From Alteriqipengyuania abyssalis (GTDB taxonomy: Bacteria > Pseudomonadota > Alphaproteobacteria > Sphingomonadales > Sphingomonadaceae): a stretch of 64,000 bases of DNA. Below the pieces are notes generated by a model. The model was not told the DNA's origin, did not search any database, and saw only the letters and a list, made by a program, of their open reading frames with translations. Of the stretch, positions 58,643-59,072 are shown one piece after another (the first letter of the stretch is position 1; each line of letters opens with the position of its first letter). The position numbers were made by a program, and so were the translations under genes. Where the stretch lies: assembly GCF_019857185.1 (NCBI RefSeq), contig NZ_JAHWXP010000002.1, forward strand, positions 868,001 to 932,000. The letters run 5' to 3'.

Positions 58643-58653
58643 GCCCGATGATC

Positions 58654-58686
58654 GAAGGGGCGGGCTGAAAGGTTCGCCCCTTTCCC
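58654..58686 (+). terminator. Rho-independent terminator of the OmpA gene
   Basis: AAGGGGCG (58655-58662) pairs perfectly with CGCCCCTT (58675-58682), followed by T- and C-rich sequence. Confidence 0.65.
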
Positions 58687-58696
58687 TTTGCCTCTA

Positions 58697-58727
58697 CGTC
58701 ATCCCCGCGAAGGCGGGGATCCCGCTT
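58697..58727. repeat. Left 31-bp terminal inverted repeat
   Basis: Starts CGTCATCCCC and ends GATCCCGCTT. Contains a perfect 6-bp hairpin with GAAG loop. Confidence 0.75.
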
Positions 58728-58737
58728 TCCTTAAGTC

Positions 58738-59025
58738 TCACAGAATATCCCCGTACCGGTCCAGCCAGTCCGGGTTCTGCTCCTCGACCAAGCGGATTTT
58801 CCATTCGCGGCGCCATTTCTTCATCGCCTTCTCGCGCGCGATAGCATCCTCGATCCGGTCATGCTGCTCGGCGTAGACGATGCGGTTGAGGCCGTAACGC
58901 TTGACGAAGTCGGAGCCATCCCCGGTCCGGTGTTGGCGAATTCGCACAGCCAAATCCGCCGTCACGCCGATGTAAATCGTCCCGCGATAGCGGTCGGCCA
59001 TGATGTAGACCCAGCCGCCCTTCAT
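58738..59025 (-). CDS. GIY-YIG endonuclease-fold protein inside inverted-repeat unit
   Basis: The 95-aa product has GWVYIMADR as the GIY-equivalent near its start and GTIYIGVTADLAVRIRQHR as the YIG segment with the catalytic Arg and following His. Then EDAIAREKAMKKW provides the metal-binding Glu. This is the complete small GIY-YIG domain, as in UvrC N-terminus and UPF0213-type proteins. The start lacks a purine-rich ribosome-binding site and falls 6 bases inside the right inverted repeat. Confidence 0.9.
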   Translation of the reverse strand: MKGGWVYIMADRYRGTIYIGVTADLAVRIRQHRTGDGSDFVKRYGLNRIVYAEQHDRIEDAIAREKAMKKWRREWKIRLVEEQNPDWLDRYGDIL

Positions 59026-59031
59026 TCAATT

Positions 59032-59062
59032 AAGCGGGACCCCCGCCTTCGCGGGGGCGACG
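59032..59062. repeat. Right 31-bp terminal inverted repeat
   Basis: Starts AAGCGGGACC and ends GGGGGCGACG. Inverted relative to 58697-58727 with 3 mismatches. Confidence 0.75.
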
Positions 59063-59072
59063 ATGTGAGAGA

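Follow-up and report, generated by a model that had tools for sequence, protein, structure and literature searches.

Can a gene for a small nuclease, enclosed by two inverted hairpins, form a mobile unit of its own? This question is raised by a 366-bp locus in a 64,000-nucleotide stretch of the Alteriqipengyuania abyssalis genome (G000:C2:868001-932000; hereafter, the window), which a first-pass annotation had regarded as a candidate mobile element with a single gene.

Anatomy of the unit and its dispersed palindromes

The locus consists of the following features (window coordinates).

58697..59062, no strand assigned: entire 366-bp unit, a GIY-YIG gene within a head-to-head CGTC REP pair
58697..58727, plus strand: left REP, with CGTC tag 58697-58700, stem 58701-58708 / 58713-58720, loop 58709-58712, and tail CCCGCTT 58721-58727
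58738..59025, minus strand: gene of the 95-aa GIY-YIG nuclease, recognized by its ORF, domain match, and invariant residues
59032..59062, minus strand: right REP of the same type as the left, with CGTC tag on the outer side (59059-59062) and tail 59032-59038

The inverted ends of 31 bp with 3 mismatches, described in the first-pass annotation, were recovered at 58697-58727 and 59032-59062: the two arms are complementary at 28 of 31 positions (90%) and lie 304 nt apart. Both arms are composed of an outward CGTC, a stem, a 4-nt GAAG loop, the returning stem, and the CCCGCTT tail. The stem of the left arm measures 8 bp and begins with AT; that of the right arm has 7 bp and a G facing a T, and begins with GC. 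Each end had been described as a hairpin, and both arms are indeed predicted to fold (left, -9.8 kcal/mol, z -3.11; right, -10 kcal/mol, z -1.85). The sole gene between the arms is the GIY-YIG ORF, which begins 6 bases away from one arm and stops 10 bases short of the second, in agreement with the annotation; the 95-aa product matched the GIY-YIG domain PF01541 with 51.4 bits against a curated cut-off of 22.6. The unit is a head-to-head REP pair whose spacer is a gene. In the alignment of 18 sequences, including the window protein, the invariant columns included Y7, Y18, R28, H32, E65, and K69. Among these, Y7, Y18, R28, and E65 correspond to the Y, Y, R, and E residues with catalytic roles in GIY-YIG enzymes. 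The A. abyssalis genome contained seven GIY-YIG loci, one of which was judged by length to be UvrC; with the window protein as query, 2-6 matches were obtained per genome of the genus.

The arm pair (unit A) scored 22 (+1/-2, ungapped), compared with a maximum of 12 in 1000 dinucleotide shuffles of the flanks. When a gap of gene size was moved along the window in 150-base steps, a score of 14 was reached at none of 419 positions; these steps cut the unit's own arm, so that the unit itself is absent from the set. The palindrome core (at most 2 mismatches) occurred four times in the window, two of these being the unit arms, with 0.32 expected. CGTC-tagged REPs of the family CGTC-1 have been described as a CGTC tag, an 8-bp stem, and a 4-nt loop (Di Nocera et al. 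2013, PMC3733652). According to the main text of that paper, they occur mostly as head-to-head dimers and mostly in alphaproteobacteria, include the dRS3 of Neisseria, start the stem almost invariably with A-T, and in most cases have an unpaired tail that fits CCA (PMC3733652). Judged by their sequence, the arms of unit A are CGTC-tagged REPs placed head-to-head.

Palindromes of the unit A type (at most 1 mismatch) numbered 14 in the A. abyssalis genome and 5-23 across ten genomes of the genus, unit arms included, and the reversed-pattern control gave 0 in all ten. The six genomes that carry unit A had counts of 13-23 and the four that lack it 5-14; that REP dosage tracks the presence of unit A is suggestive only, in ten related genomes with the unit's own arms counted and other paralogues uncontrolled. 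The same genomes contained gene-less head-to-head REP pairs with a short spacer. By eye, these spacers resembled neither one another nor the interior of a GIY-YIG unit; the idea that gene-less pairs are internal deletions of the unit was not favored, the spacers of the pairs inspected sharing their tails only. A tagged-hairpin finder that counted hairpins singly, with head-to-head pairs left out, gave almost no excess over reversed sequence in three genomes (42 vs 40, 46 vs 39, and 55 vs 53). Hence, the estimate of the general REP load rests on the palindrome-pattern counts. Four species compared over 400-kb stretches showed few clear REP differences, and their intergenic flanks were too diverged for target sites to be fixed.

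Association of the gene with hairpin pairs across relatives

A total of 67 relatives was found by protein alone. The pair score was at least 16 in 45 of them, at least 14 in 47, and at least 12 in 54 (below 12 in 13), while the same thresholds were reached by 0, 1, and 5 of 248 shifted controls. Among the 47 pairs scoring at least 14, the CGTC or TGTC tag was located on the outer side of both arms in 33 and on the inner side in 3, with 11 following neither rule, and 42 had an arm with a stem of at least 7 and at most 1 mismatch. Many units of this set carried the CCA tail, unlike the CCCGCTT of the window. Within the genus, a pair scoring at least 14 surrounded 28 of 30 loci versus 0 of 120 shifted controls; these are 30 loci fetched out of 38 matches and include orthologues, so they are not independent. 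The two misses (L093 and L094) were gene fragments, and two other loci (L085 and L086) encoded a distant GIY-YIG type with another palindrome.

A second survey covered 36 loci, some of which overlap the genus set. Among 20 close members (at least 46% identity, intact stretch), 14 scored at least 14 and 18 at least 12. L015 has an exact pair, but its frame runs into the right arm, so that the scoring script missed it; the close member L032, below 12, had no left-side arm. The remaining 16 loci (distant GIY-YIG proteins, two UvrC-like ones, and one broken frame) reached at least 14 in two cases and at least 12 in three, and the shifted controls (n = 140) in two and five, respectively. A relative on a Rhizobium tumorigenes plasmid (48.8%) had no inverted pair (score 7).

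The palindromes differed widely between loci and were alike within one locus. Units A-E of the A. abyssalis genome had five different palindromes, with one arm of B resembling D. The pairing of gene and hairpins recurred with different palindromes in many lineages, including one clear case in Bacteroidota (L289). In the sequences surveyed, the association of such GIY-YIG genes with flanking REP pairs is general, and the check proposed in the first-pass annotation, whether the protein lies between matching hairpins, came out as usually so (45/67 against 0/248 controls; 28/30 in the genus). A Mantel test on 34 of 35 tagged hairpins gave a correlation between protein and hairpin distances of r 0.45 overall and r 0.24 below 70% protein identity. 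Below 60% identity, there was no correlation (r 0.06, p 0.27), so specific recognition is unsupported by this test.

These data leave a negligible probability to an ordinary gene enclosed by an unrelated inverted repeat through chance or artefact: shuffled flanks reached 12 at most against the observed 22, the orthologue has the arms in all six species that carry unit A, and the excess of pairs among the 67 relatives over the shifted controls at a score of at least 16 also refutes it.

Other arrangements were also seen. Four loci (L085, L086, L008, and L033) belong to a distant second GIY-YIG subfamily, which in some genomes is located within other inverted palindromes, and three of the four share CTGAGCYTGTCGAAGG or a close variant. 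In an Ahrensia MAG (L276, about 691-1704), a GIY-YIG unit occurs twice in tandem.

A relative in N. gonorrhoeae (L227, CP119142) was 48.9% identical and, by eye, had dRS3-like repeats on both sides of 2001-2270. Its nearest dRS3-like CGTC tags face the gene, whereas the usual alphaproteobacterial tags face outward. This relative may be the published Ssn protein. The Ssn nucleases, a GIY-YIG family reported in Nature Communications in 2025, reportedly cut single-stranded DNA site-specifically, at a repetitive sequence of Neisseria. In this genus, Ssn reportedly modulates transformation and is described as a nuclease whose targets are dispersed.

Presence, absence, and copies of the units

Unit A was present at the same site, with both arms kept, in six of ten Citromicrobium species, between an OmpA-like gene and phoH (names assigned by reading the sequence). 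Of the species without it, G008 carried at this site a small ORF together with a REP pair whose stem type differs, and G003 had an unrelated 1-kb ORF and no REP by eye. In G001 and G004, the stretch adjoining phoH had neither the OmpA-like nor the GIY-YIG gene, and neither genome yielded a close copy of the unit. The content of the phoH-ompA gap as such (window 58643-59072; L098 and L102) varies between species. The six orthologues gave dN/dS values of 0.07-0.19 in 15 pairs with stop codons left out, indicating purifying selection. Those of G002 and G005 are each interrupted by an in-frame TAG, a different one in each, and in G002 it takes the place of the catalytic glutamate; these stops may reflect sequencing error. 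Such a pattern fits a gene that was long maintained and in places is now decaying, and the window copy looks old and, at present, stationary.

At the gap between rplT and pheS (names again from reading the sequence), unit C was present in G000 (A. abyssalis), G003, and G008 and absent from the seven other species. The anchor-to-anchor length was 64-66 bp in G001, G002, G005, G007, and G009, and 474 bp in G000 and G008; the anchor was absent from G003. G004 had a short diverged gap without unit C, and the five species with 64-66 bp had no REP by eye. The exact insertion point was not fixed because the junctions have diverged. G006 (L131) also lacks unit C, and its gap holds a different sequence of less than 200 bp that ends CGTCAT...ATGACG. 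For unit D, no clean unit-less site was found, the flanks being 432-1347 bp apart in seven relatives. At another site (G000:C2:372414-372438), a gene-less head-to-head REP pair of G009 and G005 has as its counterpart in the A. abyssalis genome one symmetric palindrome, as if the pair had collapsed, a difference like that on the Sphingobium plasmids below.

On Sphingobium plasmids, seven records had a unit in the gap between fnrL and a response-regulator gene, and the gene of TomTYG73 had a one-base deletion; the alignment covered three of these seven records together with the four that lack the unit. TomTYG64 and TomTYG74 had a single palindrome that can be read as the outer halves of the left and right hairpins joined together, with two changes in TomTYG74. 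The site was occupied in TomTYG72 and TomTYG65 by unrelated filler with no REP by eye.

Oricola indica had three copies at different places, whose proteins showed 100, 99, and 92% identity to the query, in addition to one divergent (60%) and one truncated copy. O. nitratireducens had, also at different places, a second type in two copies that were 91.6% alike across 393 bp. The 40 bp just inside the tags of the Oricola units were 0.90-1.00 identical, except for the interrupted left arm of L304 (0.62), whereas the 40 bp outside were 0.10-0.65 identical, with one pair at 0.82; homology thus mostly stops at the tags. Among the three O. indica copies, identity in the left flanks was 0.62-0.65 because these units sit in a larger mosaic repeat. 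Outside the units, the Oricola loci (L298-L305) have flanking motifs in common, e.g. GGCTAATCGCCGA. By eye, the rplT-pheS, Oricola, and Sphingobium sites, where junctions have diverged, showed no target-site duplication.

These comparisons suggest that in relatives the box comes, goes, and multiplies as one piece, the direction of each gain or loss being inferred. The first-pass annotation had called for a search for empty sites and a count of copies: sites without the unit were found in the Citromicrobium rplT-pheS gap and on the Sphingobium plasmids, and related units proved to be multi-copy in mostly different surroundings in Oricola. Its mobile-element reading is partly supported: the related units agree with it, with the protein as the putative mobilizer, but the window copy does not, since it lies at one place in six of ten species, as vertical inheritance predicts, and showed no target-site duplication by eye.

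Explanations and comparison with known systems

The explanation that we favor, and consider rather probable, is a REP-bounded nuclease cassette: a GIY-YIG gene in a pair of CGTC REPs that is gained, lost, and copied as a block through putative hairpin cutting and repair. Most likely, the GIY-YIG protein would recognize a single-stranded tagged hairpin and cut it, and the cut ends would pass to host repair or annealing. The outcome could be deletion of the box, joining of the two outer half-hairpins, or a copy of the box in another site. Cutting by the protein would be what drives movement, and the unit would work like a REPtron in which a hydrolytic GIY-YIG nuclease replaces the HUH transposase. 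CGTC REPs are known from five phyla and, in the view expressed by the authors in the main text, are apparently without a dedicated transposase (PMC3733652). More tentatively, the short GIY-YIG proteins could be these missing mobilizing enzymes, a GIY-YIG counterpart of RAYTs that, as hydrolytic single-strand nucleases and not covalent HUH transposases, would spread their own hairpin-bounded gene and, in trans, the gene-less pairs.

The maintenance of unit A at one site in six of ten species under dN/dS of 0.07-0.19 would also suit a nuclease useful to the host, i.e. a domesticated Ssn-type enzyme for which the REPs serve as genomic addresses, e.g. in tuning DNA uptake or recombination, with the adjoining REPs as targets or regulatory hairpins. 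The dispersal of unit A type REPs in all ten genomes and the reported role of Ssn in Neisseria transformation agree with it. We nevertheless consider it unlikely, since two of the six orthologues have different stop codons, the units are patchy between species, O. indica has three copies and O. nitratireducens two of another type at different places, and each of units A-E has its own palindrome. It is quite improbable that the gene is a passive passenger, caught between REPs that owe their spread to RAYT/IS200, to an IS acting in trans, or to recombination of palindromes by the host. Gene-less REP pairs do exist in the same genomes, and the single palindrome of Sphingobium could come from slippage between the 8-bp stem repeats; but many lineages, including one clear case in Bacteroidota, show the gene-hairpin pairing with palindromes that are not the same, and a search that covered the Y1_Tnp (RAYT/IS200-type) profile only gave no match in any of the ten genus genomes, its control being positive in 5 of 14 known genomes. 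Hence, a RAYT as the mobilizer is unsupported in the genus.

A homing endonuclease gene sits inserted in its own recognition site. By analogy, the nuclease could cut REP pairs or single palindromes elsewhere, and break repair would then copy the box into them; this is a sub-case of the cassette explanation, and the probabilities of the two overlap. It is possible but rather doubtful: a REP is present at some unit-less sites (TomTYG64 and TomTYG74) and a REP pair of another stem type at the window site of G008, but no REP was seen by eye in TYG72 and TYG65, in the five short rplT-pheS gaps, or at the window site of G003.

A GIY-YIG gene boxed by CGTC palindromes, often a different one for each paralogue, and behaving as a block provides a testable candidate for the partner enzyme of CGTC REPs. 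Should the nuclease prove causal, the cassette would belong to neither the DDE nor the HUH class: a mobile unit with a single gene, roughly 370-450 bp long, whose spread depends on cutting and on repair by the host. It would also connect REPs and dRS3 with single-strand GIY-YIG nucleases. A literature search for GIY-YIG with REP, CGTC, or palindromic repeats, judged by titles and the beginnings of abstracts, did not find the association. We grade its novelty cautiously because the Ssn work may already link such nucleases to neighboring repeats. With the Ssn family reportedly on record, 'not described' is too strong for such a unit. In addition, CGTC-tagged REPs themselves are published (PMC3733652).

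The window arms share with CGTC-1 REPs, as the paper's main text describes them, the CGTC end, the 8-bp stem (left arm), and the 4-nt loop, and the unit likewise has dispersed copies and head-to-head pairs in the same genomes (PMC3733652). They differ in the tail, which is CCC and not CCA, and in the right arm, which is without the A-T stem start; moreover, the spacer holds a GIY-YIG gene, and the term 'GIY' is absent from that main text (PMC3733652). An insertion sequence carries a DDE or HUH transposase, whereas the window unit has a GIY-YIG gene instead. The short GIY-YIG proteins of the UPF0213/YhbQ type (PDB 1zg2 and 1ywl) are related to the window protein by profile (E 9e-15 and 3.9e-11), but the flanks of E. 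coli yhbQ, viewed by eye and unscored, are without such a hairpin pair. Like Ssn, the window protein is a short stand-alone GIY-YIG protein; mobile-unit evidence is not known for Ssn. In a REPtron, a RAYT (HUH tyrosine transposase) is flanked by GTAG REPs. The window unit resembles it in having one gene between tagged hairpins, with dispersed gene-less hairpins in the same genome, and differs from it in the enzyme, which is GIY-YIG rather than HUH/Tyr, and in the tag, CGTC rather than GTAG.
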